From Marmoricola sp. URHB0036 (lineage in GTDB: Bacteria > Actinomycetota > Actinomycetes > Propionibacteriales > Nocardioidaceae), in assembly GCF_000426045.1 (NCBI RefSeq), contig NZ_AUEP01000003.1:1-64000 (forward strand): a DNA stretch of 64,000 nt. Direction: 5' to 3'. The position numbers were made by a program, and so were the translations under genes. Positions 1,920-45,591 of the stretch are shown here, one piece after another (the first letter of the stretch is position 1; every line of letters begins with the position of its first letter). The notes under the pieces are model-generated. The model saw nothing but the letters and a program-made list of their open reading frames with translations. It ran no database searches and was not told where the DNA came from.

Positions 1920-1967
1920 TTCGCCTTCCCTCAGGCTGCCATCAGGTCGACTACCCATGCTGTGGGG

Positions 1968-25937: not shown

Positions 25938-26080
25938 TTTTGCGCCACTGGACCAATTCCCGGCGCAAACGTCGGCTTTGTGGCCGACTCTGTGGTGCAA
26001 TCGAGCCAATCGCACCAACGCCCCTGCTCGCCCCAGACCTCGGCCCCCGGGCGCCATGATCGATGATCAGAGGACCCGTT

Positions 26081-28299: not shown

Positions 28300-29292
28300 A
28301 TGCCCGAGAAGAGGGTTCGTCATGCCCGGACGTGGGTGGCGGCGGTGATGGCTGTGGTCACCGCACCGCTCCTGGTGGCGGGCGTGGGGGTGAGCTCCGC
28401 CCACGCCGATGATCTTCCGTACGTCGCCTGGACGGCGTACCTGCCGAGCTGGACCGACCAGTACGTCCCGAGCAGCGACAACGACTGCGTCGCCGGCCGA
28501 CCCAGCTGCCTGAAGGCCACCCTGAAGAAGTTCGGGACGATCCTGAAGGAGAACGCGCAGAGCTGCACCCACGAGTCGGTGTTCGCGATGACCTACACGC
28601 GCATCACCCAGACCTACGGCTACGTGCGCGACATCCCGGGCTACTTCCAGGACGTGCCCTACATCAACCACATGGACGCGGTGTTCGCGAAGTACTACTT
28701 CGACGCCTACGACAACTACAAGTCGGGCAACCGGGCCGCCGTGCCCGCGGCGTGGCAGACCGCGTTCGACGCGGCCAGGGACCGGCGGATGACGGGTACC
28801 GGTGACCTCCTCCTCGGGATCAACGCGCACGTCAACCGCGACCTGCCGTTCGTGCTCGCCTCGATGGGCATCGTGCGTCCGGACGGTCAGTCCGGAAAGC
28901 CGGACTTCGACAAGGCCGACCTGTTCCTCAACGACGCCTCCGACGCGCTGATGGCCGAGCTCTCCCAGCGGTTCGACCCGACCATCGATGACGTCAACGA
29001 CCCACTGGGGCTCAACTACGCGTCGGTCATGCAGCTGCTCACGACCTGGCGCGAGGCGGCCTGGCGCAACGCCGAGGCACTGGTGAACGCCCCGAATGCC
29101 GCTGCCCGGGCGCTCGTCGCCCAGGGCATCGAGAACGGTGCGAACGCGGCCGCGAACTCGATCCTGCTCTCGCAGGCCTACACGCCGCCGCTGAGCACGA
29201 CGACTGCTCGCGATGCCTACTGCGCGGTGCACAAGGCCGACGCGGCACCCCTTGCCTACCCGTTCGGTACGCCGACGCCGTACGGCGGCTGA
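28300..29292 (+). CDS. Secreted DUF5995-type protein
   Basis: The 330-residue protein has a signal peptide (about 1-36, ending S-A-H-A) and a helical domain containing G-I-N-A-H-V-N-R-D-L-P-F-V-L. This matches my recollection of DUF5995. Other phrases are F-A-M-T-Y-T-R-I-T-Q-T-Y-G-Y and T-T-W-R-E-A-A-W-R-N-A-E. The His/Asn/Asp cluster could bind metal, but that is inference. Function unknown. ATG 28300 follows GGGAGGGAG at about 28283-28291. Convergent with the first giant gene across a hairpin terminator. Confidence 0.75.
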   Translation: MPEKRVRHARTWVAAVMAVVTAPLLVAGVGVSSAHADDLPYVAWTAYLPSWTDQYVPSSDNDCVAGRPSCLKATLKKFGTILKENAQSCTHESVFAMTYTRITQTYGYVRDIPGYFQDVPYINHMDAVFAKYYFDAYDNYKSGNRAAVPAAWQTAFDAARDRRMTGTGDLLLGINAHVNRDLPFVLASMGIVRPDGQSGKPDFDKADLFLNDASDALMAELSQRFDPTIDDVNDPLGLNYASVMQLLTTWREAAWRNAEALVNAPNAAARALVAQGIENGANAAANSILLSQAYTPPLSTTTARDAYCAVHKADAAPLAYPFGTPTPYGG

Positions 29293-29313
29293 CCGTCCGC
29301 AGACACACGTCGA

Positions 29314-29338
29314 CCCCTCCGGACACTTCCCGGAGGGG
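29314..29338. terminator. Bidirectional hairpin between convergent genes
   Basis: Nine-bp perfect stem: CCCCTCCGG at 29314-29322 and CCGGAGGGG at 29330-29338 with a 7-nt loop. It lies between the DUF5995-type gene (ends 29292) and the first giant gene (ends 29378 on the minus strand), so it can end both transcripts. Confidence 0.6.
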
Positions 29339-29377
29339 CCTGCGTGCCCCCCATCACCTACCGGTGGGGCTCCCGCC

Positions 29378-32300
29378 TCATGGTGCGAACGTGACGTCCT
29401 TCGTGACCGAGGCCGTCTTGCCCCAGCCGTCAGTTGTCGTCAGCGTCACCGTGTAGGTCCCCGGTCCTGAGAAGACGTGCGAGGTCGCCGACCCCGTCGC
29501 CGTGTTGCTCGCGGTGTCGCCGAAGTTCCACGCATAGGTGATGGCGTCACCGAGGTTGTCCGTCGTACCGACCGCCGAGAAGTTGCAGGCGAGACCGTTG
29601 CACGACGGCGCCTGGATCACCGGGGCCGGCGCCGTGTTGCCGGCCGGCTCGGTGATCGTGACCGTCGTGGTGGCAGGGGCGGAGGAGACGCCCCACTCGT
29701 CCTTCGCCGTGAGCGTCACCGTGTAGGTGCCGGCCGCGGTGTAGGTCTTCGTCGGGTTCGGACCAGTGCCAGTGCCCTGACCCGCGCCGTAGTTCCACGT
29801 GTAGGTCAGCGTCGGCGCGTTCTCGTCGGTGGAGTCCTTCGCGTCGAAGGCGCACACGTTCTCGGTGCACGACTTCTTCAGGACCGCCACCGGCGCTGCG
29901 TTCCCGGCGGGGATCGTCACGGTCACGTGGCGAACCGGCGGGGTCACGGTGACCAGGCCGTGCTGGTCGGTGGCGCGCACCTTGACCGTGTAGCTGCCCT
30001 CGGGCAGGACCGGGGTCGTGTAGGAGAAGTTCGACCCCGGGGTCCCCGGGCTGGTCAGGAACGCTGCCCGCCAGCTCTCGGCGACACCGAAGGTGCCGGT
30101 CGAGGTGAGGAACTTGCCGGTGCCGTCGATGATCGCGACCTCCACCTTGCTCGTGGACTGGTCGTCCTCCGACCTGCCGCTGACCAGGATCTTGCCCTCG
30201 GTGAAGGACGCGTTCTCGGTCGGTGCCAGCAGGCTGTCGGTCAGCGTCGGCGCCGAGTCACCGGGGTAGATCGGGTAGCGGGCGACGGCGTTGGTGGTGG
30301 CGAGGTCACGTTGGCCTGCGGCGTCGACGGCGTACGCCGTGACGTTCCAGCTGCCCTGGGTGGGCAGTGTCAGGTCCGTCGACCACGGGGTGCTGGTCGC
30401 GCCCACGTTGGCCACGTCTGCCGGCACGGTCGCGAACGTCGAGGAGACGGTGCCGTCTTCCTTGAGGTAGCGGCTGGTGTCCATGTCCTTGACGATCAGC
30501 CGCACGGCCGCGACGCCCTGGTCGTCGGTCGCCTGTCCCGTGATCACGCCCAGGTGAAGGGCACCCGACGGCGGCTGGGTGCCGGTCGCGCTCAGGGTGG
30601 CCTTCGGCGGTGCGTCCCCGGGGACGACCGCGTTCAGCGTCATCAGCGCCCAGCTCGACTGCGGCGTGGTGATGTCCTCGTTGTCGGTGGCCAGCACCGC
30701 GAAGGTGTAGTTGCCGGGGCCGAGGTCCTGCGGCGTCGTCCAGGTCCAGTGGTAGCTCTGCACGTTGGGCGTGACCGGGAGCTTGTAGAGCGCCAGGCCG
30801 TTGTCGATGCCCCAGGTGCCGTCGACGGTGAGGTTCTCCCCGGTCGAGTTGTTCAGCATGGCGACGTAGACGGCCTTGATGGTGCCGTCATCGGTGGCGG
30901 TTCCGGAGAAGGTCATTGGTCCGCCCGGCGCAACCGTGACCGGCTGCGGCGTGGTCGGTGGGACCACGGAGCCAGGGGAGCTGATGGACACGCTCGGGGC
31001 CTGGCCGTTCGCGGAGATGACCCAGGTGCGGTCGAGGGTGTCGAGCGAGGCGTTGCCCGCCGTGTCGTGGGCGAGCGACTGGGCCTGCCAGGTGCCCTCG
31101 GTCGGGACGGTGATCTCCTTCGACCAGGTGGTGCTGGTCGCGTTGGGCACGTCCGGCGTGATCCGGATCGTGTTGTACGTCGGGTCGGAGGTGCCGTCGT
31201 CCTGGAGGTAGCGGCCGGCCGAGTCGCGCAGCGTCATCGTGATGCCGGTGACGCCGTGGTCGTCGGCTGCCGTACCGGAGACGGTGAAGGTCTTGCTGTT
31301 CACCAGACCGGCCGCGGGGACGGCGGCGTACGCCATCGTCGGCGGCGCGTCGTCGGGACTCCAGGTCTCGATCTTCTTGATCGCCTTGGTCGGGTCCTCG
31401 TCACCCTTGGTGTTGTTGGGTCCGAAGCCCTGGGCCTTCGCACGCACCAGCATCTTGACGTTCCTGGGCACGTTGAGGGTCACCGACCAGGTGGCCGTGG
31501 TCGCGTCGACCGGGGTCACGGTCGCCTCGAAGTTCGCGGCTGGACCCCAGTCGGTCTTGTTGGGCTGCAACCACTGCAGGCTGTCGCGGTCCTGCACCTC
31601 GAGGAACACCTTGCGGACACCGGTGGGAGCGGTGGCCGTGCCGGTGATGGTGAAGTTCTGCGCGGTGGTCAGCACCCGACCGGAGATCGGGGTGGTGATC
31701 GTGGTGTCGACCCCACCGGGGGCGTCGACGTTGTCGAGGTCGAAGTAGGCGACCGAGCCGACGTTGGAGCTGCCCTGCGTGGTCGCGTCCCCGCCGGTGA
31801 GCAGACCGTGCGGAGTCAGTGCCATCGCCTCGTTGCCGATGTTGGAGTTCGAGCCGGGGTTCCACTCGAGCGCGTGGCCGTCGACTGGGTTGAGCGCGCC
31901 GAGGTGCTCGCGCCCGACGACGGAGTCGCCCAGGCCGTAGCCGGAGAAGCCCTGACCGGTGCCGTAGCCGACATCGGCCGCACCCGGGAACGGCAGCGGA
32001 GCCGACGGGGACTCGTTCCACGCGAAGTGTCCGCCGATGTAGACGGCCTTCTCGGAGATCGCGGTGCTGTACACGCTGTCGAAGCAGCGGGAGATCCACT
32101 TGGGCTGGACGTCGTTGCCGCCGGTCATCGGGTAGGCGACGACGGTGTCGTTGATCGGCGGACGGTCGCCGCCGGAGCCGCTGGAGACCACGAACCACGA
32201 GTCGTCCGGCGCGATCGAGCCGCTGATGATGCGCTGGATGCCGCCGACGAACTGCAGGTTGTCGTCCCAGAGGCGGGTGCGCCACGGGGTCAGCTGCTTG

Positions 32301-34042
32301 GTGGCCGTGTCGATGATGCCGATGCCGTAGCGGTCCTGGCCGTTGATCTGCCGACCGGTGTGGATGACGAGGAGCTTGCTGCCGTCGTGGGTGAGCAGCA
32401 GCTTCTGCACGGTCAGCCCACCGTTGACGCCGATGCCCCCGGAGAGGTTGTTGACGAAGCCGGTGTCGACGACGCCGGTCAGTGCATCCACGGCGGCCAG
32501 GGACTTGCGGACGACTCCGTTGATCTTGCCGAAGCGACCACCGGCGTAGACCGTCGTACCGGAGACAGCGAGCTCGGTGACCCGGCTGTCGGCGTCGGCG
32601 GTGAAGCCCGGCACGGTGTCACCGTTGTCGGGGTCGATCTCGGCGATGCCCTTCTTGGTGACGCCGTTGACGGTGTTGAAGCTGCCGGAGACGTAGAGAC
32701 GGGTGCCGTCGGGGGAGGCTTCCACCGCGTCGACGTCGAAACCGCTGTTGCCGTCGAACACGGGGTTGAAGGTCGGGTCCACCAGGCCGGTGCCCAGGTC
32801 GTAGGCCGCGATGTGCGGCTGGTTGTAGGACGTGGTGTTGGCGGGGGTGGCCCCGTTGGCCCTCACATCGTTGGCCACCGTGGCGAAGCTGCCGACGACG
32901 AAGACGCGGTCACCGACCACCTCGATGTCGTGGATCTCGGCCGGGGTGCCGTCGCCGTCGAGGAACTTCGGCAGACCGACCTCGGGAGCCTCGGAGACCA
33001 GGCGGGTGTGGCCCGGCAGCGGCTCGGCGTAGGTCGCGGTGACCGGCTTGGTGATCGAGATCGAGGTGGTGCCGTCGTTCACGGTCAGGGTGACGTTGCG
33101 GGTGCCGGTCCTGGCGTAGGAGTGGCTCGAGGTCGCGCCGGTGCCGGTCGCGTTGTCGCCGTACGTCCAGGCGTAGGTGAGGGCGTCACCGTCGGGGTCG
33201 GAGGACCCGGTGCTGTCGAAGCTGCAGGCGAGGACGGCGCAGGACGAGGTGAACGCAGCGACCGGGGCGCGGTTGGCCGGGGCAGGGCCGGGGCTGACCA
33301 CGACCGACATCAGCTGGTTGCTGGTCAGCGCCTTGGCCGACTTCGCGACCCGCGCAGCGGCGGTGCCGGTGGGCACCGGGGTCTTCGAGTCGGCCACGAT
33401 CGCCGTCGTGTGGTTGGTGCCGCCACCGGCGACCCCGGTGCGCTGGACGGCGTTGGCGGGCGGCGTCCAGAGCGACGCGACCGATGCCTTGCCACCCCAG
33501 TAGCTGACCAGGAAGGAGCCCGGCTGGCTGACAGCGACGGCCGGCGCGGTGTGGGAGGTGCCCGCGGTGGCCAGCGTGGCGCTCGCCGAGGCGGTGACGG
33601 CCGAGGTGGCGCGCGAGCTGCGGTAGACGACCACACTCGTGCTGGTCAGCGCCTTCACACTGGTGCGCACGGTGACGTTGGTGCCCCTGTCGGTGGCGGT
33701 GGCCTTCCTGGTCCAGACGCGCGCCCGGCTGGCGGAGCCGTCGCGCGACTGGAGCTGGGTCCAGCCCGCCGGACCGGTCATGGTGCCGCTCTTGGTGTTG
33801 GCGATGGTGAACAGCAGCATCGTGTCGCCGGCCACGACGGTCGCCGGGACCTTGACCACGTGGCTCGTGGTGGACCCGGCGGCGCTGGCCGCGCCGACGT
33901 AGCTCAGCGTCGGTGCCGGCAGGGCGGCGTTGGCGCCGGGCAGAGGACCCAGGGCAGCCAGTGCCAGAGCGCCCACGACCGTGGTGGTGAGCAGGGTGGC
34001 AAGGCGGCGACGCCCGCGTGCGGGCGCAGTAGGCACAGTCAT
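29378..34042 (-). CDS. Giant secreted PKD/beta-propeller/Ig-repeat protein 1
   Basis: The 1554-residue protein has a signal peptide (1-39) and a secreted beta module (about 40-250, with A-G-D-T-M-L-L-F and G-P-A-G-W-T-Q-L-Q). A PKD domain (about 251-335, with C-A-V-L-A-C-S-F-D) and a propeller-like region of delta-60/DUF5122-type repeats (about 340-760) follow. Five Ig-like repeats (about 760-1370) and two C-terminal PKD domains complete it. There is no transmembrane end or sorting signal. PKD and Ig repeats usually mediate adhesion or carbohydrate binding; the exact role is unknown. Last of three tandem paralogues; ATG 34042 has a CGGGGG ribosome-binding site. Length and order match its paralogues closely. 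Confidence 0.8.
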   Translation of the reverse strand: MTVPTAPARGRRRLATLLTTTVVGALALAALGPLPGANAALPAPTLSYVGAASAAGSTTSHVVKVPATVVAGDTMLLFTIANTKSGTMTGPAGWTQLQSRDGSASRARVWTRKATATDRGTNVTVRTSVKALTSTSVVVYRSSRATSAVTASASATLATAGTSHTAPAVAVSQPGSFLVSYWGGKASVASLWTPPANAVQRTGVAGGGTNHTTAIVADSKTPVPTGTAAARVAKSAKALTSNQLMSVVVSPGPAPANRAPVAAFTSSCAVLACSFDSTGSSDPDGDALTYAWTYGDNATGTGATSSHSYARTGTRNVTLTVNDGTTSISITKPVTATYAEPLPGHTRLVSEAPEVGLPKFLDGDGTPAEIHDIEVVGDRVFVVGSFATVANDVRANGATPANTTSYNQPHIAAYDLGTGLVDPTFNPVFDGNSGFDVDAVEASPDGTRLYVSGSFNTVNGVTKKGIAEIDPDNGDTVPGFTADADSRVTELAVSGTTVYAGGRFGKINGVVRKSLAAVDALTGVVDTGFVNNLSGGIGVNGGLTVQKLLLTHDGSKLLVIHTGRQINGQDRYGIGIIDTATKQLTPWRTRLWDDNLQFVGGIQRIISGSIAPDDSWFVVSSGSGGDRPPINDTVVAYPMTGGNDVQPKWISRCFDSVYSTAISEKAVYIGGHFAWNESPSAPLPFPGAADVGYGTGQGFSGYGLGDSVVGREHLGALNPVDGHALEWNPGSNSNIGNEAMALTPHGLLTGGDATTQGSSNVGSVAYFDLDNVDAPGGVDTTITTPISGRVLTTAQNFTITGTATAPTGVRKVFLEVQDRDSLQWLQPNKTDWGPAANFEATVTPVDATTATWSVTLNVPRNVKMLVRAKAQGFGPNNTKGDEDPTKAIKKIETWSPDDAPPTMAYAAVPAAGLVNSKTFTVSGTAADDHGVTGITMTLRDSAGRYLQDDGTSDPTYNTIRITPDVPNATSTTWSKEITVPTEGTWQAQSLAHDTAGNASLDTLDRTWVISANGQAPSVSISSPGSVVPPTTPQPVTVAPGGPMTFSGTATDDGTIKAVYVAMLNNSTGENLTVDGTWGIDNGLALYKLPVTPNVQSYHWTWTTPQDLGPGNYTFAVLATDNEDITTPQSSWALMTLNAVVPGDAPPKATLSATGTQPPSGALHLGVITGQATDDQGVAAVRLIVKDMDTSRYLKEDGTVSSTFATVPADVANVGATSTPWSTDLTLPTQGSWNVTAYAVDAAGQRDLATTNAVARYPIYPGDSAPTLTDSLLAPTENASFTEGKILVSGRSEDDQSTSKVEVAIIDGTGKFLTSTGTFGVAESWRAAFLTSPGTPGSNFSYTTPVLPEGSYTVKVRATDQHGLVTVTPPVRHVTVTIPAGNAAPVAVLKKSCTENVCAFDAKDSTDENAPTLTYTWNYGAGQGTGTGPNPTKTYTAAGTYTVTLTAKDEWGVSSAPATTTVTITEPAGNTAPAPVIQAPSCNGLACNFSAVGTTDNLGDAITYAWNFGDTASNTATGSATSHVFSGPGTYTVTLTTTDGWGKTASVTKDVTFAP

Positions 34043-34090
34043 GGTCTGGAATCCCCCGTGGCAGTGGGCCAGCCCGAGCGGCGGCCCAGC

Positions 34091-34148
34091 CGAATAGTGC
34101 GCCCAGATCTGTCTGCTTTGCACCTATCGGTCCTGTTTGGTCTAGTCC
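34091..34148 (-). promoter_or_regulatory. Shared upstream element of giant gene 1
   Basis: On the minus strand GGACTAGACC begins at 34148, and the -10-like GCACTATTCG begins at 34100, 48 nt further on. CAGATCTGGGCG lies just before the -10-like box. The layout matches those of giant genes 2 and 3. Confidence 0.5.
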
Positions 34149-34181
34149 GCGGTGATGTGGGTTGGTGATCCGCATACACGG

Positions 34182-34211
34182 AGGGCCCCTCCGAGGTATC
34201 GGAGGGGCCCT
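34182..34211 (-). terminator. Strong hairpin after giant gene 2
   Basis: Perfect 13-bp stem: AGGGCCCCTCCGA at 34182-34194 and TCGGAGGGGCCCT at 34199-34211 with a 4-nt loop. It lies 37 nt past the stop of giant gene 2 (minus strand). No U-run follows, but stem strength makes it a likely terminator that isolates the next gene's promoter. Confidence 0.6.
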
Positions 34212-34247
34212 GCGCGTTGGTGAGGGTGGTGAGTGGTGAGACCTCGG

Positions 34248-37200
34248 CTACGGGATGGTGATCGTCCGTTGTGCCTGCGAGGACTTGCCCCATCCGTCCG
34301 TCACGGTCAGGAACACCGTGTAGGTGCCTGGTCCGGTCGGGAAGGTGTGGGTCAGCGACGATGAGGTGCTGGTCAGAGGACCATCACTGAACGTCCAGAA
34401 GTAGCTGATCGTGTCACCGACGTTGCTGTCGGCCGAGCCCACACCGGAGATGTTGCACACGTTGGCGTTGCACGAAGGCGTGTTGATCACCGCTGTCGGA
34501 GCGACGTTGGTGGTCGGCTCGGCGATGGTCACCGTCTGCGTCACCGGAGCGCTGGCCAGACCCCACTCGTCGGTCACGATCAGCTGCACCGTGTAGCCGC
34601 CGGCCTGGGTGAAGGTCTTGGTCGGCTTCGGCCCGGTCTGGGTCGTGCTGACCCCGTTGAGCGTGTAGGTCCACGCGTAGGTCAGCGTCGGCGCGTTCTC
34701 GTCGGTCGACGTACGACCGTCGAACCCGCACACGTTGGTCGACGAGGTCGTCCCGGTCGGAGGGCAGGTGTAGGTGAACTTCGCGACCGGCGCCTGGTTG
34801 TTAGCCGGGTGCGACACGGTCACGTGGCGCACGGCCGGTGGGGTCGTCGTCTGATCGTGCTGGTCGACGCCCTGGATGGTCACCGTGTAGGCACCGTCCG
34901 GCACCACGGGCGTGGTGTAGGAGAAGTTGGACCCCGGAGTGCCCGGACTGGTCAGGAACGCCGTGCGCCAGCTGGGCGTCGTGCTGGTGAAGGCACCGTT
35001 GGATCCCATGTACTGGTTGGCGGAGTTCATCACCGTCAGCTGGACGGCCTGCATCGCGTGGTCGTCCTCGGCGCGCCCGCTGACCTGGATGCGGCCGTCG
35101 GTGAAGGACGCCCCCTCGGTCGGGGACAGCAGCGCGTCGGTGAGGGTCGGGGGCAGGTCACCGGGGTAGATCCGGTAACGAGCCGTGGCTCCCACGGTCG
35201 AGAGATCCTGCTGGTCGACGGTGTCGATGGCGTAGGCGGTCACGTTCCAGTCGCCGCCCTGGGGCAGGTCGACCGCGAGCGTGAAGGTCGTCGACGTCCC
35301 CCCGGGCGTGCCCAGCGTGGCCGTACGGGTGGCGAAACCGGACCCCATGGTGTTGTTCGGCTGGAGGTACTTGCTGGTGTCGCCGTCGTACAGCGACAGC
35401 CGGACCTCCTTCACACCCTTGTCGTCGGTCGCGGTGCCGGCCAGGTCGAGGTGCAGCGCCTGGCCGCCCGTGACCGTGCCCGTGACGTTGAGCTTGCCGT
35501 CCGGCGGCGCGTCACCCGGCACCTGGGCGTTGATCGTGAGCTTGCCCTGGTTGGTCGAGGACGTCGTCAGGCCGATGTCGTCGGTCGCCCGCACGGCGAA
35601 GGAGTAGGTGCCTGCCTTCAGGTTGAACGGCGTCGTGTAGGTCCACTGCTGGCTGCTGCCCGACAGGTTCTGCGGCACGACGCGGTACCAACCCTGGATC
35701 GCGTTGGGGCCGTAGGTGCCGTCCGAGGCGAGGTTCTCGCGGGTGGTGGTGTTGCGCAGCGAGACCTCGACAGAGGTGATGGCCTTGTCGTCGTCGGCCG
35801 ACCCCGAGAAGGTCATCGGGCTTCCGGGAGCCACGGTCACCGGGGAGGCCGCCGTCGGCGGCAGCATGGTGACCGGGGCGCCGATCGACACGGTCGGGGC
35901 CACGCCGCCCTCGCTGACGATCCAGGTGCGGTCGGCGGTGTCGAGGTCGGACTGGTTGGCCGAGTCGACCGCCCGGGCCTGGAGACGCCAGGTGCCCTCG
36001 GCGGGCACGGTGATCTCCTTGGACCACGTCGTGTTCGTCGCGCCGACCACGTCCGGGTCGAGCCGGAAGGTGTACTGCGAGGAGGCCACGGTCCAGTCGG
36101 GCTGAAGGTAGCGGTTGGCCTCGTCGCGCACGGTGAAGCCGATCGACTTCACGCCGACGTCGTCGGACGCCGTGCCGGTGACCGTGAACGTCTTGGTCGT
36201 GACCGGGTTGGCTGTGGGGCCTGTGACGTTGGTGTTCGGCGGCTGGTCGGAGAGGCCGAAGGTCTCGGTCTTCTTCGTCGCCGGCGTGTTGTCGCCGGTG
36301 CCGGCCGAGGAGAACGTCTGCGCGCGCAGTGCCATCCGGTGGTTGCCGGTGATGGTGAGCGGCAAGGACCAGTTCGCGGTCCGCGTGCCGGTGCTCTGCA
36401 GCGTTGTGTTGATGGTGTTGGACGCGGTCTGCCAGGTGGTCAGGTTGTCGGCCAGGTAGCGGTTGGCGTCGCGGTCGTAGACGCGCAGCTCGACCCGGTT
36501 GATGGTGCCGCTGGTCACCGACGCGGTGCCCTTGACGGTGAAGGCCTCAGCAGCCGGATTGACGCGGCCCTCGATCGGGTCGGTGATCGCCGTCTCGACG
36601 CCGTTGCTCGCGGCCACGGAGTTGAAGTCGAAGAACGCGATCCGGCCGATGTTCACGCCGGCCTGCGTGGTGGCGTCACCGCCGGTGAACAGACCCCGAG
36701 GCGTGACCTCCATGGCCTTGTTGCCCTCGTAGGAGTTCGAACCGGGGTTCCACTCGAGGGCGTGACCGTCGACCGGGTTGAGCGCACCGAGGTGCTCGCG
36801 GTTGACCACGGCGTCGCCGAGGCCGTAGCCGGACAGGCCCTGGCCGGTGCCGTAGCCGACGTCGTCGAGGCCCGGCCACGGGTCGGGAGCGGTCGGGGAC
36901 TCGTTCCAGGCGAAGTGGCCACCGATGTAGACGGCCTTCTCCGAGATGGCCACCGAGTAGACGCTGTCGAAGCATCGGGTGATCCACTTGGTCTGCACGT
37001 CGCTCTGGTCACCCGCGGGGTTGACCGGGAAGGCCATCACGGTGTCGTTGATCGGCGGGCGGTCGCCGCCCGAGCCGCTCGTCACCACGAAGTAGGAGTC
37101 GTCCGGTGCGACGGCCCCGCCGTAGGCGCGCTGGATGCCGCCGACGTACTGCAAGTTGTCCTGCCACAAGTTGGTCTTCCACGGCAGCAGCTGCTTGGAG

Positions 37201-38900
37201 GAGACGCCGATCATGGCGACGCCGTAGCGGTCCTGGCCGGCGACTTGGCGGGCCGTGTGGACCACGATCAGTCGTGACATGTCATGGGTGAGCAGCAGGC
37301 GCTGGACGGTGATGGCGCCGTTGGCCCCGAGACCGCCGCTCAGGTTGTTCACGAAGCCGGTGTCGACGGCGCCGGTGCTGGCGCTGACGGCGCCCAGGCC
37401 GACGCGGGTCGTCCCGTTGATCTTCGTGAACTTGCCGCCGACGTAGAGCGTCGAGTTGGTGGCCACCACGTCGGAGCCCCGCGCGTCGAGGTTGGCGGTG
37501 AATCCGGAGATCACGGCGCCGGTGGTCGGGTTGATCGAGACCAGGCCCTTCCGGGAGGTGCCGTTGACGGTGCTGAAGGAGCCGATGGCGAACAGCTTGG
37601 TGTTGTCGGGCGTGAAGGCGATGCCCTCGACGCCGCCGCCTCCGAACACCGGGTTGAAGCCGGTGTCGACGAGCCCGGTCGTCAGGTTGTACGACGCCAG
37701 GCCCGTGCGGGTGTAGGTCGTCGTGTTGCCCGACCGCTGGTTCTGGATCTTGGTGAAGCTCCCGGAGACGAACACCCGGCTGCCGACGACCTTGATGTCG
37801 AAGATCTCGCCGTCGCTGATCTTGGGCAGGTCGGTGTGCGCGGTGTCGGGCACCAGCTTGGTGTGCCCGGGCACGGGCAGGCCGGCGGTCGTGGTGGCCG
37901 AGCGTGTCGTCGAGTTGGTCGCCTTGCCGTCGTTGACGGTCAGCGTCACGGTGCGCGTCGCGACCGTGGTGTAGGTCTTCGAGGCGGTGACGCCGGTGCC
38001 GGTGGTGCCGTCGCCGAAGTTCCAGGCGTAGGTCAGCGGGTCGTTGTTGGCATCGGAGGAAGCCGAGGCGTCGAAGGTGCAGGTCAGGCTGGCGCAGGTC
38101 GCGGTGAACGAGGCGACGGGCGCAATGTTGGTGGGCGGCGTCACGCCGCCGGTGCCGGGGCTGACCACCACGGAGAACATCGGGGTGGCGCCGCCGGAGA
38201 TGCTGGACGTGGCGGTCTTGCCGGCCGCGGTGCCGGTGGCGACCGGGGCGCCCGAGTCGCCGAGCAGGGAGCTGACCTTGCCGCCGCCGGTGGCGGCGGG
38301 GGCGGCGCGGTTGACGGTGCCGGCGGGGGCGGTCCAGGTGGACGCGGTGGAGGACTTCTCGGCCCAGGAGCTGACCAGCCAGGAGCCGGCCTGGGCGACC
38401 GCGACCGACGGCGTGGTGAACGAGGTGCCGGTGGTGCCCGGGCTGCTGGCCGAGGCGGTGACGGACGGGGTGCCGCCGGCCGAGCGGTAGGCCGAGACCG
38501 TCATTGCGTCCTTGACGAGGGTGGTGCCGCTGCTCACGGTCACGGTCGACCCGGCGTCGGCGGCGACGGCCTGCTTGGTGTAGGCGCGGCCCGAGGTCGA
38601 GGTGCCGGTCTGGGTCTGCAGCTGCGTCCAGCCGGCCGGCCCGGTGAGGGCGGCCGCGGAGTTCGTCACGATGAACAGCACCAGCGTGTCGCCGGCCTGG
38701 ACACCGGCCGGCACCACGACCGTGTGCGCGGTGCGGTTGCCGGCGTTGCTGCCGGTGCCGACCCAGGACAGCACCGGGTCCGCGGCACTCGCCGACGGTG
38801 CCGGCGTGAGCCCGAAGATCGCGAGTGCGGCAGCGAGAACGCTGACCAGAGCCGGAACGAGTCGCGTGCGAGTGCGCGCTGACGCGTGGAGTGCAGACAT
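34248..38900 (-). CDS. Giant secreted PKD/beta-propeller/Ig-repeat protein 2
   Basis: The 1550-residue protein is colinear with its neighbours: signal peptide 1-39, secreted module about 40-250, PKD about 255-340 (C-A-S-L-T-C-T-F-D), propeller-like region about 345-770, five Ig-like repeats about 770-1380, and two PKD domains at the end (C-G-F-D-G-R-T-S-T-D-E in the first). Within the propeller, I-G-G-H-F-A-W-N-E-S-P and G-Y-G-T-G-Q-G-L-S-G-Y are nearly invariant in all three proteins. No anchor is visible, so it is expected to be released or to bind non-covalently. Function unknown. Own promoter and terminator. ATG 38900 is preceded by GGGGGG. Confidence 0.8.
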   Translation of the reverse strand: MSALHASARTRTRLVPALVSVLAAALAIFGLTPAPSASAADPVLSWVGTGSNAGNRTAHTVVVPAGVQAGDTLVLFIVTNSAAALTGPAGWTQLQTQTGTSTSGRAYTKQAVAADAGSTVTVSSGTTLVKDAMTVSAYRSAGGTPSVTASASSPGTTGTSFTTPSVAVAQAGSWLVSSWAEKSSTASTWTAPAGTVNRAAPAATGGGKVSSLLGDSGAPVATGTAAGKTATSSISGGATPMFSVVVSPGTGGVTPPTNIAPVASFTATCASLTCTFDASASSDANNDPLTYAWNFGDGTTGTGVTASKTYTTVATRTVTLTVNDGKATNSTTRSATTTAGLPVPGHTKLVPDTAHTDLPKISDGEIFDIKVVGSRVFVSGSFTKIQNQRSGNTTTYTRTGLASYNLTTGLVDTGFNPVFGGGGVEGIAFTPDNTKLFAIGSFSTVNGTSRKGLVSINPTTGAVISGFTANLDARGSDVVATNSTLYVGGKFTKINGTTRVGLGAVSASTGAVDTGFVNNLSGGLGANGAITVQRLLLTHDMSRLIVVHTARQVAGQDRYGVAMIGVSSKQLLPWKTNLWQDNLQYVGGIQRAYGGAVAPDDSYFVVTSGSGGDRPPINDTVMAFPVNPAGDQSDVQTKWITRCFDSVYSVAISEKAVYIGGHFAWNESPTAPDPWPGLDDVGYGTGQGLSGYGLGDAVVNREHLGALNPVDGHALEWNPGSNSYEGNKAMEVTPRGLFTGGDATTQAGVNIGRIAFFDFNSVAASNGVETAITDPIEGRVNPAAEAFTVKGTASVTSGTINRVELRVYDRDANRYLADNLTTWQTASNTINTTLQSTGTRTANWSLPLTITGNHRMALRAQTFSSAGTGDNTPATKKTETFGLSDQPPNTNVTGPTANPVTTKTFTVTGTASDDVGVKSIGFTVRDEANRYLQPDWTVASSQYTFRLDPDVVGATNTTWSKEITVPAEGTWRLQARAVDSANQSDLDTADRTWIVSEGGVAPTVSIGAPVTMLPPTAASPVTVAPGSPMTFSGSADDDKAITSVEVSLRNTTTRENLASDGTYGPNAIQGWYRVVPQNLSGSSQQWTYTTPFNLKAGTYSFAVRATDDIGLTTSSTNQGKLTINAQVPGDAPPDGKLNVTGTVTGGQALHLDLAGTATDDKGVKEVRLSLYDGDTSKYLQPNNTMGSGFATRTATLGTPGGTSTTFTLAVDLPQGGDWNVTAYAIDTVDQQDLSTVGATARYRIYPGDLPPTLTDALLSPTEGASFTDGRIQVSGRAEDDHAMQAVQLTVMNSANQYMGSNGAFTSTTPSWRTAFLTSPGTPGSNFSYTTPVVPDGAYTVTIQGVDQHDQTTTPPAVRHVTVSHPANNQAPVAKFTYTCPPTGTTSSTNVCGFDGRTSTDENAPTLTYAWTYTLNGVSTTQTGPKPTKTFTQAGGYTVQLIVTDEWGLASAPVTQTVTIAEPTTNVAPTAVINTPSCNANVCNISGVGSADSNVGDTISYFWTFSDGPLTSTSSSLTHTFPTGPGTYTVFLTVTDGWGKSSQAQRTITIP

Positions 38901-38946
38901 CCGTGGTACCCCCCGTTGATGGGCCCCCGTCTTCGAGAGCCCGTGC

Positions 38947-39004
38947 CGTATCTTCGGTCCAATCTGGTGCTTTCGCCCACAACGGCCCGGAATGGGTCTA
39001 GTCC
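38947..39004 (-). promoter_or_regulatory. Shared upstream element of giant gene 2
   Basis: On the minus strand GGACTAGACCC begins at 39004, TTGTGGG follows about 20 nt later, then CAGATTGGACCGAAGATACG with the -10-like GATACG ending at 38947. Spacing is 49 nt from the first box to GAAGATACG. Closely similar to the giant gene 3 element. Confidence 0.55.
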
Positions 39005-39038
39005 AGATAGCTGTGGCACTGCTGGTGGAGCGGTCGAG

Positions 39039-42000
39039 CTAGGGAGCGGTGACGGCCACCGACCTCGTGTTGACGGGCGAGGACTTGCCCCAGCCGTCAG
39101 TCGCGACGAGGGTGACGTCGTAGCTCCCGGTCGCGCTGAACAGGTGTGACGTCGCAGATCCGGTCTTGGCGTTGTTGGCGCCGCTGCCCGGGTCTCCAAA
39201 CGTCCACTGGTAGCTGATCGAGTCGCCGGTGTTCGGGTCGATGGTGCCGACCGCCGAGAAGTTGCAGGTCAGCCCGGAGCACGACGGGTCGTTGAACACC
39301 GCGTTGGGTGCCACGTTGCCCGGAGGCTCGGTCATCGGCAGCTGGACGGTCACCGGGTCGGAGGCCACGCCCCACTGGTCCTTCACCGTCAGGGTCACCG
39401 TGTAGGTGCCGGGCGGGTTCGGCGCGGCGGCCGTGTAGGTCTTCTTCGGGTTGGGAGCCGTGCTCGAGCCCTGTCCGGTGCCGAAGCTCCACACGTACGT
39501 CAGCGTCGCGGGGCTCTCGTCGGTGGAGTGGCGACCGTCGAACTGGCACACGTTGTTCGTGCAGGCCGGGGTGTCGATGACCGCGACCGGCTTGTTGTTC
39601 GGCGGTTGCGTCACCGTCACCGAGCGCGACGGCGGGGCCGTCGTGACCAGGTGGTGCTGGTCGGTGCCGCGGTAGAGGATCTTGTAGCTGCCTGCCGGCA
39701 CGATCGGGGTGGTGTAGGAGAAGTTCGACCCCGGCGTACCAGGACTGGTCAGGAACGCGGTGACCCAGACCGGGTTGGCCGACGTGGTGAACGATCCGGA
39801 CGAGGTCATGTACTGGTTGCTCGTGGTGTTCTGCACCGAGACCTCGACCTTGGACATGGCGGGCGTCCCGCCCGGGTTGGTGTCCTCGGCCCGTCCACTG
39901 ATGAAGATCTTGCCGTCGGTGAAGGCGGTGCCGTCACTCGGCGCCAGCAGGTCGGGGTTGAAGGTCGGCGGCGCGTCGTTGGGGTACGACGGGTAGGTCG
40001 CCGTCGCGCCGGTGTTGCTGAAGTCGTACTGGTCGGAGGTGTCCACCGCCACGGCCGTGACGTTCCAGTAGCCGTCGGTCGGCAGCGTGATCGTCGTGGA
40101 CCAGGTGACGCTCTTCGCGTCGGGGTTGTTGACCACGGGCACGGTGAAGTACGTGTACCCGGCCTGCGTCCCGCCGGTGTCGTTGGCGTACTTCGCGGTG
40201 TCGGCGTCGCGCAGCGAGACGTGCACCTCCTTGACGCCGACGTCGTCGGTCGCCGTACCCGACAGGGTGAGGCTGTGGGAGGGCAGCGGTGCCTGCACGC
40301 CGGTCGTGCCGAGGGCCAGGGTCGCCTTCGGTGGCGCGTCACCGGTGACCTGTGCGGTGAACCCCGCGACCGCCCACAGGTTCGAGGGCGTGGTGATGTT
40401 GTCGTTGTCGGTCGCCAGTACCGCGAACTGGTAGCTGCCCGGCGTCAGGTTGAACGGCGTGGTGTAGGTCCAGTTGACGGTCTTCTGGCCGACGTTGCTC
40501 ATCAGCCGGAAGGTGTTCAGGCCGTTGTTGCGGCCGAAGCTGCCGTCGGTGGTGAGGTACTCCTGGGTGGAGTTGTTCACCAGCGCGATGTCGATGTTCT
40601 TGATGGTGCCGTCGTCGGTGGCCGAGCCGGTGAAGGTGATCGGCTGGCCCGGCTGGACGGTGAAGGTCTGCGGCGCCGTCGGTGGCGTCACGGTGCTCGG
40701 CGAGGTGATCGAGACGACCGGCGCCTGAGCGGTCGCCGAGACGGTCCAGTCACGGTCGGTCGTGTCGAGCGAGCTGTTGCCGCCGGTGTCGTTGGCCCGC
40801 ACCTGTGCCCGCCACAGTCCCTCGTCGGGGACGGTGATCTCCTTCTGCCAGGTGGTGCTGGTGGCGCCCGGGACGTCAGGCTGGAAGCTGAAGGAGTTGT
40901 ACGCCGAGCCGACGGTGCCGTCGTCCTGGAGGTACTTGTTGGCAGCGTTGCGGATGCTCAGCGTGATCGAGGCGACGCCCTTGTCGTCGGTCGTCGAGCC
41001 GGTGACGGTGAACGTCTTGGTCGGGACGGTGCCGGCTGCCGGGGCCGTGATGGTGGCCGTCGGCGGTGCGTCGTCGAGGTTGAAGGTCTCGAACTTCTTG
41101 GTCGCCGGGCTCGGGTCGGGGGCGTTGGTGGAGGACACCGTCTTGGCGATGGCCTCCATCTTCACGTTGCCGGCCACGGTGACCGGCAGCGTCCAGGTGC
41201 TCGAGGCAGCGCCGGGGGTGTCCAGCGTGGGCGTGAACACGTTCTTCGTCGTACCCCAGGTCCCGTTGGTCTGCAGGTACTGGACGGGGCTGCTGTCGCG
41301 GACCTGGACGGTCACCTCGACCCGGTCGACGGTGCCCGCGGTCGTCGAGGCGGTGCCCTTGATGTCGAAGGAGTGGGCGGCGTTCTCGACCCGGCCCATG
41401 ATCGGTTCGGTGATCGCGGTGTCGACGCCGTTGGGGGTCGGCACCTGGCTGAAGTCGAACTCCGCGATGCGGCCGACGTTGGCGCCGCCCTGCGCGACCG
41501 CGTCACCGCCGGTGATCAGGCCGCGCGAGGTCACCAGCATCGCCTTGTTGCCCTCGAAGGAGTTCGAGGCGGGAGCCCACTCCAGCGCCTTGCCGTCGGT
41601 GGGGTTGAGGGCGCCGAGGTGCTCGCGGCCGACGACCTGGTCGCCGAGGGCGTAGGCCGAGAGGCCCTGGCCGGTCCCGTAGCCGATGTCGGCCTGGCCG
41701 GGCCACGGGTCGTTGGCGGTCGGTGACTCGTTCCACGCGAAGTGACCGCCGATGTAGATGGCCTTCTCGGAGATCGCCACCGAGTAGACGCTGTCGAAGC
41801 AGCGCGAGATCCACAGTGGCTGGACGTCGTCACCACCGGTGAGGTTGAACGCCACCACCGTGTCGTTGATCGGCGGACGGTCACCACCGGAGCCGCTGGT
41901 CACCACGAAGTAGGAGTCGTCGGGTGCGATGGCGGCGCCGTAGGCGCGTTGGATGCCGCCGACGAACTCGAGGTTGTCCTCCCACAGGTGGCTGTGCCAG

Positions 42001-44390
42001 GAGGTGAGCTGCTTGGTGACGGTGTCGATGATCGCGACGCCACCGCGGTCCTGGCCGTTCACCTGGAGGCCGGTGTGCACCACGATGAGCTTCTTCATGT
42101 CGTGGGTCAGCACCATCCGCTGCACGCCGATGGCGCCGTTGACGCCGACGCCCTGGGTGATGTTGTTGACGAAGCCGCCGTCGACCTGACCGGTGGTGGC
42201 GTCCACGGCGACGAGCGAGCCGCGGGCGACGTTGTTGACCTTGGTGAAGCGGCCGCCGGCGTAGACGGTCGTGTTGGACGCGACCACCTCGGTGGCGCGC
42301 GCGTCGGTGTTGGCGGTGAACTCACTGACCGGGGCTCCGGTTAGCGGGTCGAGGCGCACCAGTCCCTTGCGCGTGATCCCGTTGACCGTGCTGAAGGTGC
42401 CGGCGGCGTACAGCTTGGTGCCGTCGGGGCTCACGGCGACCGAGTCGACCTCCTCGCCGGCGAAGTCGGGGCGGAAGCTGGCATCGACCAGCCCGGTGTC
42501 GAGGTTGTACGACGCCAGCCCGGCCTGCGGGTAGCTGGTGGTGTTGCCCGACCGCTGGTTCTGGATCGAGGTGAAGGTGCCGGCGATGAACACCCGATTG
42601 CCCATCGTGGCCATGTCGTAGATCTCGCCGGTCGTGATCTTGGGCATGTCGGTGCGCGTGGTCTGGGGGACCAGCGCCGTGTGGCCGGGCGGGGGAGTGG
42701 TGCCCGGGTCGGCCGGGGGCGTCACCCCACCGGTGCCGGGGCTGACGACGACCGAGAACAGCTGCTCGCCGCCGGCGGCGGTGCTGGTGGTGGCGGTGCG
42801 GGACGCGGCGGTGCCGGTGGCCACGGCGCCGCCGGAGTCGGCGAGCAGGGAGCTGACCTTGCCGCTGCCGGTGGCGGCGGGGTTGGCGCGGGTGGTGCTG
42901 GTGGCGGGCTTGGTCCAGGTCTGGGTGACCGAGGACTTCTCGCTCCAGGAGTTGACCAGCCAGGAGTTGGCCTGGCCGACGGCCACCGTCGGGGAGACGT
43001 GGCTGGCCGTCGTCGTGGTGCCGGCGGTCTGCGCGGAGGCCGTGACCGAGGCCGCGCCTCCGCTGCTGCGGTAGGCCGCGACGCTGATCGTGTCCTTGAT
43101 GGTGGCGCTCGACGTGAAGCTGACCGTGGAGCTGGCGTCACCCGCGGTGGCCTGCTTGGTCCAGGCGCGGCCGCGCGTGGTGGTGCCGTCCTTGCCCTGG
43201 AGCAGGGTCCAGCCGGTCGGGTTGTTGACGGTGCCGGTGATCGACGCCGTGGACAGGAACATCACCAGGGTGTCCCCGGCCTGCACGGTGGACGGGATCG
43301 TCACCACGTGGTTGGTGCGGTTGCCGGCGCTGCTCGAGGCCGCGACGAACGACAGCGTCGCGGCGGCGGCGCTGGTCGGGGTGGCGGTGCGGGTGGTGGT
43401 CGGGCTGCTGGTGCCGTCGCTGACGGTCAGGGTGACGGTCCGGTTGCCGGCGGACCCGTAGGTGTGCGAGGTCGTGACGCCCGTGCCGGTGGTGGCGTCG
43501 CCGAAGGCCCAGCTGTAGGTCAGCGAGCCGACTGCGGTGTCGGGGTCGGTGGTGGCCGAGGCGTTGAACGAGCAGGTCAGACCGGTGCAGCTCACGGTGA
43601 ACGAGGGGACCGGCGGCTGGTTGGTCGGGGTGCCGGAGGTGCCCGGGCTGACCACGACCGAGAACAGCTGCTCGCCGCCGGCGGCGGTGCTGGTGGTGGC
43701 GGTGCGGGACGCGGCGGTGCCGGTGGCCACCGCACCGTTGGAGTCCGCGAAGAGGGAGCTGACCTTGCCGCTGCCGGTGGCGGCGGGGTTGGCGCGGGTG
43801 GTGCTGGTGGCGGGCGTGGTCCAGGTCTGGGTGACCGAGGACTTCTCGCTCCAGGAGTTGACCAGCCAGGAGTTGGCCTGGGCGACCGCGACCGTCGGCG
43901 AGACGTGGTTGGCCGTCGTCGTGGTGCCGGCGGTCTGCGCGGAGGCGGTCACCGACGACGTACCTCCGGCGCTGCGGTAGACGCCGACGCTCATCGTGTC
44001 CTTGATGGTCGCGCTCGAGGTCACCGTGACGTTGGCGTTCGCGTCGGCCGCCACGGCCTGCTTGGTCCAGGCACGGCCGCGCGTGGCGGTGCCGTCCTTG
44101 CCCTGCAGCAACGTCCAGCCGGCCGGGTTGGTGATGGTGCCGCTGATCGAGTTGGTGGACAGGAACATGACCATGGTGTCGCCCGCCTGCACGTTGGCGG
44201 GGAGCTTGACGACGTGGGCCGTGCGGTTGCCGGAGCTGCTGGCCGCGCCGACGAACGAGAGCGTCGGGTCGGCCGCGCTGGCAGCGGGCAGAGGCGAGAG
44301 GCCGAGGACCGAGAGGGCCGTGGCGAGCACGGCCACGATCGCCGCCAGTGGTCGTCGCTGACTGGACGCGGACACGCGGTGTGCAGACAT
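39039..44390 (-). CDS. Giant secreted PKD/beta-propeller/Ig-repeat protein 3, with duplicated N-terminal module
   Basis: The 1783-residue protein has a signal peptide (1-39) and two nearly identical secreted modules (about 40-250 and 345-555) separated by a PKD domain (C-T-G-L-T-C-S-F-N). Then come the propeller-like region (about 570-990), five Ig-like repeats (about 990-1600) and two PKD domains (C-T-N-N-V-C-Q-F-D; C-S-G-L-T-C-N-F-S). The extra module and PKD unit explain the additional 230 residues relative to paralogues 1 and 2. No membrane anchor. The frame is open to 44765, but ATG 44390 is chosen for its signal peptide and GGGGGG ribosome-binding site. Function unknown. Confidence 0.8.
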   Translation of the reverse strand: MSAHRVSASSQRRPLAAIVAVLATALSVLGLSPLPAASAADPTLSFVGAASSSGNRTAHVVKLPANVQAGDTMVMFLSTNSISGTITNPAGWTLLQGKDGTATRGRAWTKQAVAADANANVTVTSSATIKDTMSVGVYRSAGGTSSVTASAQTAGTTTTANHVSPTVAVAQANSWLVNSWSEKSSVTQTWTTPATSTTRANPAATGSGKVSSLFADSNGAVATGTAASRTATTSTAAGGEQLFSVVVSPGTSGTPTNQPPVPSFTVSCTGLTCSFNASATTDPDTAVGSLTYSWAFGDATTGTGVTTSHTYGSAGNRTVTLTVSDGTSSPTTTRTATPTSAAAATLSFVAASSSAGNRTNHVVTIPSTVQAGDTLVMFLSTASITGTVNNPTGWTLLQGKDGTTTRGRAWTKQATAGDASSTVSFTSSATIKDTISVAAYRSSGGAASVTASAQTAGTTTTASHVSPTVAVGQANSWLVNSWSEKSSVTQTWTKPATSTTRANPAATGSGKVSSLLADSGGAVATGTAASRTATTSTAAGGEQLFSVVVSPGTGGVTPPADPGTTPPPGHTALVPQTTRTDMPKITTGEIYDMATMGNRVFIAGTFTSIQNQRSGNTTSYPQAGLASYNLDTGLVDASFRPDFAGEEVDSVAVSPDGTKLYAAGTFSTVNGITRKGLVRLDPLTGAPVSEFTANTDARATEVVASNTTVYAGGRFTKVNNVARGSLVAVDATTGQVDGGFVNNITQGVGVNGAIGVQRMVLTHDMKKLIVVHTGLQVNGQDRGGVAIIDTVTKQLTSWHSHLWEDNLEFVGGIQRAYGAAIAPDDSYFVVTSGSGGDRPPINDTVVAFNLTGGDDVQPLWISRCFDSVYSVAISEKAIYIGGHFAWNESPTANDPWPGQADIGYGTGQGLSAYALGDQVVGREHLGALNPTDGKALEWAPASNSFEGNKAMLVTSRGLITGGDAVAQGGANVGRIAEFDFSQVPTPNGVDTAITEPIMGRVENAAHSFDIKGTASTTAGTVDRVEVTVQVRDSSPVQYLQTNGTWGTTKNVFTPTLDTPGAASSTWTLPVTVAGNVKMEAIAKTVSSTNAPDPSPATKKFETFNLDDAPPTATITAPAAGTVPTKTFTVTGSTTDDKGVASITLSIRNAANKYLQDDGTVGSAYNSFSFQPDVPGATSTTWQKEITVPDEGLWRAQVRANDTGGNSSLDTTDRDWTVSATAQAPVVSITSPSTVTPPTAPQTFTVQPGQPITFTGSATDDGTIKNIDIALVNNSTQEYLTTDGSFGRNNGLNTFRLMSNVGQKTVNWTYTTPFNLTPGSYQFAVLATDNDNITTPSNLWAVAGFTAQVTGDAPPKATLALGTTGVQAPLPSHSLTLSGTATDDVGVKEVHVSLRDADTAKYANDTGGTQAGYTYFTVPVVNNPDAKSVTWSTTITLPTDGYWNVTAVAVDTSDQYDFSNTGATATYPSYPNDAPPTFNPDLLAPSDGTAFTDGKIFISGRAEDTNPGGTPAMSKVEVSVQNTTSNQYMTSSGSFTTSANPVWVTAFLTSPGTPGSNFSYTTPIVPAGSYKILYRGTDQHHLVTTAPPSRSVTVTQPPNNKPVAVIDTPACTNNVCQFDGRHSTDESPATLTYVWSFGTGQGSSTAPNPKKTYTAAAPNPPGTYTVTLTVKDQWGVASDPVTVQLPMTEPPGNVAPNAVFNDPSCSGLTCNFSAVGTIDPNTGDSISYQWTFGDPGSGANNAKTGSATSHLFSATGSYDVTLVATDGWGKSSPVNTRSVAVTAP
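42725..43370 (-). repeat. Intragenic duplication, second copy of N-terminal module
   Basis: Encodes A-T-L-S-F-V-A-A-S-S through F-S-V-V-V-S-P-G-T-G. Long stretches are almost base-identical to the copy at 43635-44275, for example around 42740-42850 compared with 43655-43765. Confidence 0.8.
43635..44275 (-). repeat. Intragenic duplication, first copy of N-terminal module
   Basis: Encodes P-T-L-S-F-V-G-A-A-S through F-S-V-V-V-S-P-G-T-S. Partner of the repeat at 42725-43370; the two copies are separated by a PKD coding segment (about 43385-43630). Confidence 0.8.
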
Positions 44391-44444: not shown

Positions 44445-44503
44445 TTCGTATCCTCGGCCCGATGTGGCGAAATACCCACAAGCGCTGTGAATGGGTCTAG
44501 TCC
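44445..44503 (-). promoter_or_regulatory. Shared upstream element of giant gene 3
   Basis: On the minus strand GGACTAGACCC begins at 44503, TTGTGGG follows, then CACATCGGGCCGAGGATACG, with the -10-like GATACG at about 44447-44452. The same palindromic core also lies 43 nt before the -10 of the divergent gene at 44560. Confidence 0.55.
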
Positions 44504-44546
44504 GCCGTGCTCCGCGCGGCTCCGACTCCGGGAGCGCCTGCGCGGC

Positions 44547-44552
44547 TAGCGT
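44547..44552 (+). promoter_or_regulatory. -10 TAGCGT of a leaderless promoter
   Basis: TAGCGT lies 7 nt before ATG 44560 and decides this start over the longer open frame beginning at 44491. Confidence 0.5.
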
Positions 44553-44559
44553 GACCTCG

Positions 44560-45591
44560 ATGCTGCTGCGTGCTCTCCGGGTCGCCGTGATCGTGCTCCT
44601 GCTTGCGGTGAGCGGGGGTGCGGTCGCCGCCGACGCCACCTCCGGCGGCACCGCCCCGGTGGCCAGGAAGGCGCGGTTCGAGTGCCACGGGATCGACCGT
44701 GGCGCGGTCCGGGGCACCGACCCGACGTACACCCGCAAGACGCTCGCCGACTTCCGCAACCACAAGCGCCTGTGTGGCGGACTGTGGCTGCCGACACCGC
44801 GCCGCTACCTGGTGCCCCAGGGGCTCGCGGTCACCGGCAGCACCGCCTGGGTGAGCGGCTTCCGCTTTCGCCCGGGGTACGGCGAGAGGCCGTGCCAGCT
44901 CCGACGCATCAACCTGGCGACGGGAGAGCAGCTCGCCTTCCACAGCGCCATCTACGGCCGGGTCGGCCAACGTCCGCGCACCTACTGCCGGCACGGCGGC
45001 GGCATCCTGCAGCGGGGCGCCTACCTGTGGATCGTGGAGAAGAACAAGCTCTGGCAGGTCGACCCGTCGGGCACGAGCAGTGTCCTGGACGCGCGTCGGG
45101 TGTGGCGCATCAAGGCGCCGGCCCGCGGCTCGGCCATCGTCGCGACCAGGAAGAGCATCGGTCTCGTGCCGTTCGTGACGAAGGGGCATCCCTCCATCTA
45201 CTGGTTCCGCTTCAAGCAGCTGCAGAAGCCGGGCGTCCTCGACCTCGGCGCGCAGGCGAAGGGGACCACCCAGGTCGGGGCGGTGGCGCGCACCCGGGTG
45301 CCCACCCTCGTGCAGGGCGCGACGCTGGACGGCGCCGGCGGCCTCTACCTGGCGCGCTCCTCGCTCGCGTGCGGCGAGCTGGTCACACCGGGCGGTCGCC
45401 GGCTCGGGTTCGTGCCCGGGGCCGAGGGCATCCAGTTCGGGCCGGCCGGCCGGAGGCTGTACGTCGTCAGCGAGTCCGGTGCCCGCCCCTACGTGAAGTC
45501 CCGCAAGCCCCTGACCGCCGCGGTGAACCGGTTCGAGTGGCCCGGGCTCGGCCACGGCCGCAAGGCCGACTGCGGGTTCGCGGGCTTCTAG
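44560..45591 (+). CDS. Secreted propeller-like protein of unknown family
   Basis: The 343-residue protein has a signal peptide (M-L-L-R-A-L-R-V-A-V-I-V-L-L-L-A-V-S-G-G-A-V-A-A). Its body has repeated beta-strand phrases such as G-L-A-V-T-G-S-T-A-W-V-S-G-F, Y-L-W-I-V-E-K-N-K-L-W-Q-V-D and G-G-L-Y-L-A-R-S-S-L-A, suggesting a beta-propeller. Six or more Cys (for example F-E-C-H, R-L-C-G-G, P-C-Q-L, Y-C-R-H-G, A-D-C-G) may form disulfides. I do not recognise the family. Divergent from giant gene 3, with a shared regulatory region. Its end overlaps the stop of the convergent histidine kinase gene by 4 nt. Confidence 0.7.
   Translation: MLLRALRVAVIVLLLAVSGGAVAADATSGGTAPVARKARFECHGIDRGAVRGTDPTYTRKTLADFRNHKRLCGGLWLPTPRRYLVPQGLAVTGSTAWVSGFRFRPGYGERPCQLRRINLATGEQLAFHSAIYGRVGQRPRTYCRHGGGILQRGAYLWIVEKNKLWQVDPSGTSSVLDARRVWRIKAPARGSAIVATRKSIGLVPFVTKGHPSIYWFRFKQLQKPGVLDLGAQAKGTTQVGAVARTRVPTLVQGATLDGAGGLYLARSSLACGELVTPGGRRLGFVPGAEGIQFGPAGRRLYVVSESGARPYVKSRKPLTAAVNRFEWPGLGHGRKADCGFAGF

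Follow-up and report, generated by a model that had tools for sequence, protein, structure and literature searches.

Marmoricola sp. URHB0036 carries three giant tandem genes, A, B, and C, whose products are, at a probability we place near 55%, secreted and unanchored scaffolds or adhesins of the exopolysaccharide (EPS) matrix. At the sequence level, this reading is drawn from the architecture of the proteins, their signal-peptide-like N-termini, the lack of an anchor, the location of family members near EPS genes in related genomes, and a rare upstream word that the triplet has in common with an EPS-initiating gene. The window is the whole stretch of DNA that was analysed, 64,000 nucleotides of contig NZ_AUEP01000003.1.

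Genes A (29378..34042, 1554 aa), B (34248..38900, 1550 aa), and C (39039..44390, 1783 aa) are neighbours on the minus strand, separated by 205 bp (A/B) and 138 bp (B/C), and the three adjacent giant genes of the initial annotation are thus confirmed. Pairwise identity, taken by segment, is 52% for A/B, 48-55% for A/C, and 56-60% for B/C across almost the full length, which makes the three proteins paralogues. All three are read as secreted from their signal-peptide-like N-termini. Those of A and C also match a loose twin-arginine pattern, and either the Sec or the Tat route is possible. The C-terminal tails contain no membrane span or LPxTG-like motif, in agreement with the earlier claim that an anchor and a sorting motif are lacking. 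A crude scan of the last 120 residues in 45 family rows, including a few cut by contig ends, likewise found neither feature (0/45), and sortase anchoring was rejected.

A and B share the order N-PKD-Prop-Ig5-PKD2, where N is an N-terminal module without a Pfam name. The modules, all on the minus strand, were mapped with profiles built on A, B, and C themselves. In A, these profiles place the N-module (33287..33916) and the beta-propeller (31676..33019); the first PKD (33029..33268), the five Ig-like domains (29909..31705), and the two C-terminal PKD domains (29384..29896) are also placed by Pfam. In B, the N-module (38154..38777) and the propeller (36564..37874) come from the profiles and a structure model, the first PKD (37884..38123) from Pfam, the profiles, and structure matches, and the five Ig-like domains (34806..36587) and two C-terminal PKD domains (34254..34793) from Pfam and the profiles. 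C is composed of N-PKD-N-Prop-Ig5-PKD2. Its first N-module (43641..44267) is followed by the first PKD (43371..43616) and by a second N-module that lacks its own PKD (42735..43364), both N-modules being placed by the profiles. The propeller (41391..42689), the five Ig-like domains (39603..41408), and the two C-terminal PKD domains (39042..39590) of C, like its first PKD, were placed by Pfam and the profiles. The common module order described earlier is present in all three proteins, except that C adds the second N-module.

With an E limit of 0.1, Pfam assigns three PKD domains to every one of the proteins (PKD_4 at E 9e-51, 8.3e-41, and 1.4e-38), places Big_7 or DUF4625 matches in the Ig region, and has no match in the N-terminal module. 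The propeller matches DUF5122 in C only, under the curated cut-off, with no such match in A or B at E up to 0.1. No enzyme family passes its curated cut-off in Pfam or NCBIfam searches of A, B, and C. In PHROGs, the propeller matches a family of unknown function and the N-module has no match. The N-module is also present in other predicted secreted proteins of the same genome, including a phytase and a protein with a Laminin_G_2 match just under the cut-off, a recurrence that would be expected of a binding module.

The N-module and PKD of B were modelled at a mean pLDDT of 91 (alignment of 12 rows). The 12 PDB matches of this model below E 0.001 each span 75-100 alignment columns, the size of a PKD domain, so the N-module itself is without a strong solved match. 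Its predicted fold resembles phage proteins in BFVD, several of which carry a minor-tail-protein annotation. TM values of 0.67-0.79 by target, over 210-241 columns and at 16-23% identity, are reached by five of the first 12 matches; these five are not named tail proteins, and those that are so named score 0.35-0.52 by target among the best 50. Kinship to phage by sequence was rejected, as a tblastn search of 50,697 phage records with an E limit of 0.01 gave no match.

The propeller of B was modelled at a mean pLDDT of 77, lowest in the final third (alignment of seven rows). Among the PDB matches listed, the first is a designed eight-bladed protein and many others are WD40 proteins; judged by titles, the best 50 include propeller proteins. 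WD40 propellers have seven blades. The second half of the propeller contains long polar blocks, e.g., SGSGGDRPPINDT and GHFAWNESP, that are invariant across seven sequences.

Colinear homologues, which the initial annotation had suggested searching for, are found in a minority of genomes of the taxonomic family. The propeller profile matches 58 of 341 family genomes at E 1e-40 or better. Full-length matches better than 1e-140 are present in 41 of the 341 (45 rows, mostly single copy), as counted from the rows listed, with no more than the five top candidates scored in each genome; a few further genomes have partial propeller fragments. Full-length matches occur in 4 of 24 genomes of the genus sample (G000, G001, G014, and G015) and in three genomes besides G000 in a phylum sample of 396. 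A contig scan gave matches in three named organisms, Kribbella monticola, Nocardioides deserti, and a Marmoricola MAG. Two copies lie in tandem in G014 and on separate contigs in G311. The arrangement is not peculiar to this locus; its special feature is the tripling, which is observed nowhere else among the 341 family genomes.

The architecture was surveyed in 45 proteins, three from the window and 42 from 41 fetched loci, using profiles that derive from the window proteins and hence favour their order. The propeller and five Ig-like domains are kept in 44 of the 45. One or more N-modules, an optional PKD, the propeller, five Ig-like domains, and two or more PKD domains describe 40 proteins. 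The misfits are L118, where four Ig-like domains were found, L112, with the N-module at the C-terminus instead, L134, without an N-module, and two proteins cut by contig ends (L132 at its start and L135 at its end). In a tree of the propellers, A and B each group with a different one of the two G014 copies (100/99 in both cases), and C attaches to the pair that contains B (98/92). The duplications therefore predate the split from G014.

Linkage to EPS genes was examined in 41 loci, made up of 40 fetched stretches and the Kribbella locus. Genes were called by a simple script from codon-position GC and neighbours were clustered into families, each named by Pfam from one member. Recurrent neighbours include an Alg14-like transferase, Wzz, Bac_transf, and Polysacc_synt (Wzx-type), which are the four EPS families scored here. 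Others are a GH5-like protein, a sensor kinase, a LuxR-type regulator, a TauE exporter, a protein with CotH and lamin-tail domains, and one family without any Pfam match. In 7 of the 41 loci, the orthologue has a TauE homologue (51-59% identical) next to it.

By gene clustering, two or more EPS families are present in 21 of the 41 loci and one or more in 25. By tblastn, self-hits excluded, two or more are present in 22/41 loci vs 0/20 control stretches, each of equal length from elsewhere in the same genome (20 genomes). The Fisher p of 1.2e-5 ignores relatedness, and the 41 loci are not independent because the query families were drawn from them and many of the genomes are close relatives. 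Among loci of 19.9 kb or more, 22 of 31 have two or more EPS families. No EPS family was matched by tblastn in 16 of the 41 loci, seven of which are 19.9 kb or longer. In the genome-matched subset, the count is 18/20 loci vs 0/20 controls; this subset is richer than the remaining 21 loci because it was picked for long contigs, and the comparison over all 41 loci is the one relied on here. Within the genus, the G001 orthologue locus is the only one with an EPS family (Wzz). The 64-kb window has no tblastn match to any of the four.

Many orthologues have a companion giant protein beside them (family F4, 17 rows; e.g., L119 13889-18478). It has a divergent propeller, followed in longer rows by PKD and N-module repeats. 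Rax2 matches both this companion and a paralogue in the genome of Marmoricola sp. URHB0036, and DUF5122 also matches that paralogue. Upstream of orthologues in another genus (L107, L109, L113, L139, and others), the words GATACCCC and AATTTGTGGG are observed. They are found mostly among close relatives and possibly mark another regulatory site.

In the genome of the window, only the 10-mer GGACTAGACC ties A, B, and C to an EPS gene. It occurs on the minus strand at 34139..34148, 38995..39004, and 44494..44503, at distances of 106, 104, and 113 bp upstream of the start codons of A, B, and C, respectively. The 4,829,548 bases of the genome contain five copies, three of which precede A, B, and C. 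The fourth is 118 bp before a Bac_transf gene, which encodes an EPS-initiating sugar transferase. TauE precedes this gene, and after it come genes for a PAPS_reduct and a GTP_EFTU protein, which we take to be CysD and CysN, and, further on, an acyltransferase and a glycosyltransferase. At a comparable distance from the fifth copy (C1), no same-strand gene start is called. The earlier proposal of a secreted matrix system thus gains support from two sides, the EPS linkage of the family in relatives (22/41 loci vs 0/20 controls) and a rare word common to the triplet and an EPS-initiating gene.

The genus has 94 GGACTAGACC sites in 24 genomes. The order TauE, site, and Bac_transf is found in 6 of the 24, this genome and five others, and the six transferase promoters, being orthologous, could have inherited the word from a common ancestor. 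Triplet-family genes follow six of the sites (three here, two in G014, and one in G001), and in G013 a site is followed by a gene for a giant propeller protein. Genes for a small membrane protein (five sites), an SsgB-like protein (two), and an isoleucyl-tRNA synthetase-like protein (two) also recur after the site, all three names being our own reading of the sequences. Many sites precede genes without an evident EPS tie, and the word is not specific to EPS. Compared with a control 10-mer across the genus, it is not generally enriched before genes (a same-strand start 50-220 bp downstream at 54/94 sites vs 12/24) nor before signal-peptide-like starts (15/94 vs 6/24, by a crude rule that misses B). 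As this control is negative, the case for the word rests on its recurrence before the same genes; none of the 24 control sites precedes a transferase. Within the window, GGWCTAGWCC with two mismatches was observed 107 times vs 104 expected, and GGACTAGACC with one mismatch four times vs 4.1 expected. The signal is confined to the exact sites against the whole genome.

DasR-like control of these candidate sites is a lead, not a finding. For Streptomyces coelicolor, a table of DasR sites places GGACTAGACC at chiH and its reverse complement at SCO6032-33 (PMC4398421). The three triplet sites agree with the dre-type TGGTCTAGACCA core at 9 to 10 of 12 positions. A GntR/UTRA homologue is present in 23 of 24 genus genomes, 62-80% identical to the query outside the genome of the window, with weaker second matches excluded; here, its gene, at C2:70093, lies 6 kb beyond the window end. 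After three unplaced rows and one without an upstream stretch were set aside from the 23, 19 rows were readable. Exact GGACTAGACC lies upstream of the gene in two of these (G021 and G022), and the near variant TGGGCTAGACCT in two more. Neither lies upstream of the gene in Marmoricola sp. URHB0036, and the perfect TGGWCTAGWCCA is absent from that genome.

A terminator-like, GC-rich hairpin without a T run lies between B and A (34176..34217, minus strand, fold z -6.0), and another GC-rich hairpin follows A (29312..29340, minus strand, z -2.7). A simple three-gene operon was rejected on the strong hairpin between B and A and the upstream word that each gene has of its own. No strong hairpin follows C (z 0.7), and C and B may therefore be co-read. 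Rfam at gathering thresholds has no match in the window. Between 28100 and 45700, a sigma-70-like consensus has a single site, inside gene C (0.5 expected), and a terminator-like consensus has seven sites vs 5.8 expected, which is no signal.

Several other genes of the window were noted. Two adjoining sulfatase-family genes with signal-like N-termini (252-3653) are on the plus strand, as are an ice-binding-like protein gene that overlaps a sortase-domain gene (26063-27771) and a DUF5995 protein gene that adjoins the triplet (28300-29292) with GGACTAGTCG 148 bp upstream. The called start of a further plus-strand gene (44491-45591) overlaps the GGACTAGACC site that precedes C, which suggests that the gene really begins further in. 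A GAF-type sensor histidine kinase gene near the triplet (45588-46850) is on the minus strand. Elsewhere in the genome (C4; L018 5435-8140), a phytase with PKD and N-module is encoded near a sulfotransferase-like gene. The sulfatases and the CysD/CysN-like genes beside the EPS transferase hint at a possible sulfated polymer.

Modular matrix proteins whose genes accompany those for EPS synthesis are a known kind. RbmC and Bap1 of Vibrio cholerae are secreted modular matrix adhesins, paralogues that share an EPS-binding propeller; the RbmC gene lies between two EPS clusters and that of Bap1 outside them amid unrelated genes (PMC10102183). A, B, and C are likewise secreted modular paralogues sharing one propeller. 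Unlike RbmC and Bap1, they have PKD/Ig spacers and the N-module, and their EPS binding is putative. A propeller profile from the three window sequences matched no chain of the PDB at E up to 1, and the PDB includes a Bap1 chain, since its crystal structure is named in PMC10102183. The Pfam matches of A, B, and C at E up to 0.1 include no beta-prism or crystallin family. RbmC/Bap1 would be the nearest analogue, resembling the triplet in way of working without kinship in sequence. An archaeal surface layer protein (PDB 1l0q) also combines propeller and PKD in one surface protein, with a sequence match to the triplet in PKD only. In the open-licence literature, outside of which most subscription papers lie, no description of the family, its domain set, or the tandem tripling was found, and the original statement that no function had been assigned stands within that scope.

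The same evidence was weighed for other roles. The propeller could be an EPS-processing enzyme (a lyase, hydrolase, or modifying enzyme), with the other domains binding and spacing. The EPS linkage fits this equally (22/41 vs 0/20), and the invariant polar blocks of the second propeller half favour it. However, the enzyme-family searches of Pfam and NCBIfam gave nothing above curated cut-offs, and the structure matches listed are mostly scaffold propellers by title, from a model only moderately confident in that half. We regard an enzyme as unlikely.

A non-covalently held surface coat or S-layer-like protein with no special EPS tie is quite improbable. Size, repeats, the lack of an anchor, and the PDB match to the archaeal surface layer protein in the PKD region would all suit such a coat, but the contrast of EPS linkage with the controls (22/41 vs 0/20) argues against it, as does a sporadic spread (41/341 family genomes) unlike that of an essential coat. 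It is very doubtful that the proteins are secreted binders of an external glycan or host surface, placed near EPS genes only because both serve surface life. The likeness of the N-module to predicted phage-protein structures, some annotated as minor tail proteins, and its occurrence in a phytase are consistent with such binding, which alone fails to explain one architecture travelling with Wzx, Wzz, and Bac_transf genes.

As parts of an EPS matrix, the unanchored proteins would act outside the cell as modular components. The propeller, the N-modules, or both may bind the EPS polymer or another surface, and the PKD and Ig-like domains may form a spacer; we infer polymer binding, cross-linking, or adhesion. 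Tripling would yield variants of one part, possibly with different partners, and the triplet may be regulated jointly with the EPS-initiating transferase. A bolder and rather improbable extension is an actinobacterial "double-sided tape" independent of RbmC/Bap1. Here, the propeller would hold EPS and phage-tail-like N-modules would face outward. The family would have moved out of the EPS cluster and tripled in tandem, and a DasR-like site responsive to N-acetylglucosamine would coordinate it with the polymer.

To our knowledge, only a few proteins are known as components of the EPS matrix in actinobacteria. The present family, which is conserved, poorly covered by Pfam, and linked to EPS clusters in about half of the loci examined, supplies concrete candidates for matrix proteins. 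The rare upstream word and the unnamed phage-protein-like domain are testable in strains of the taxonomic family.
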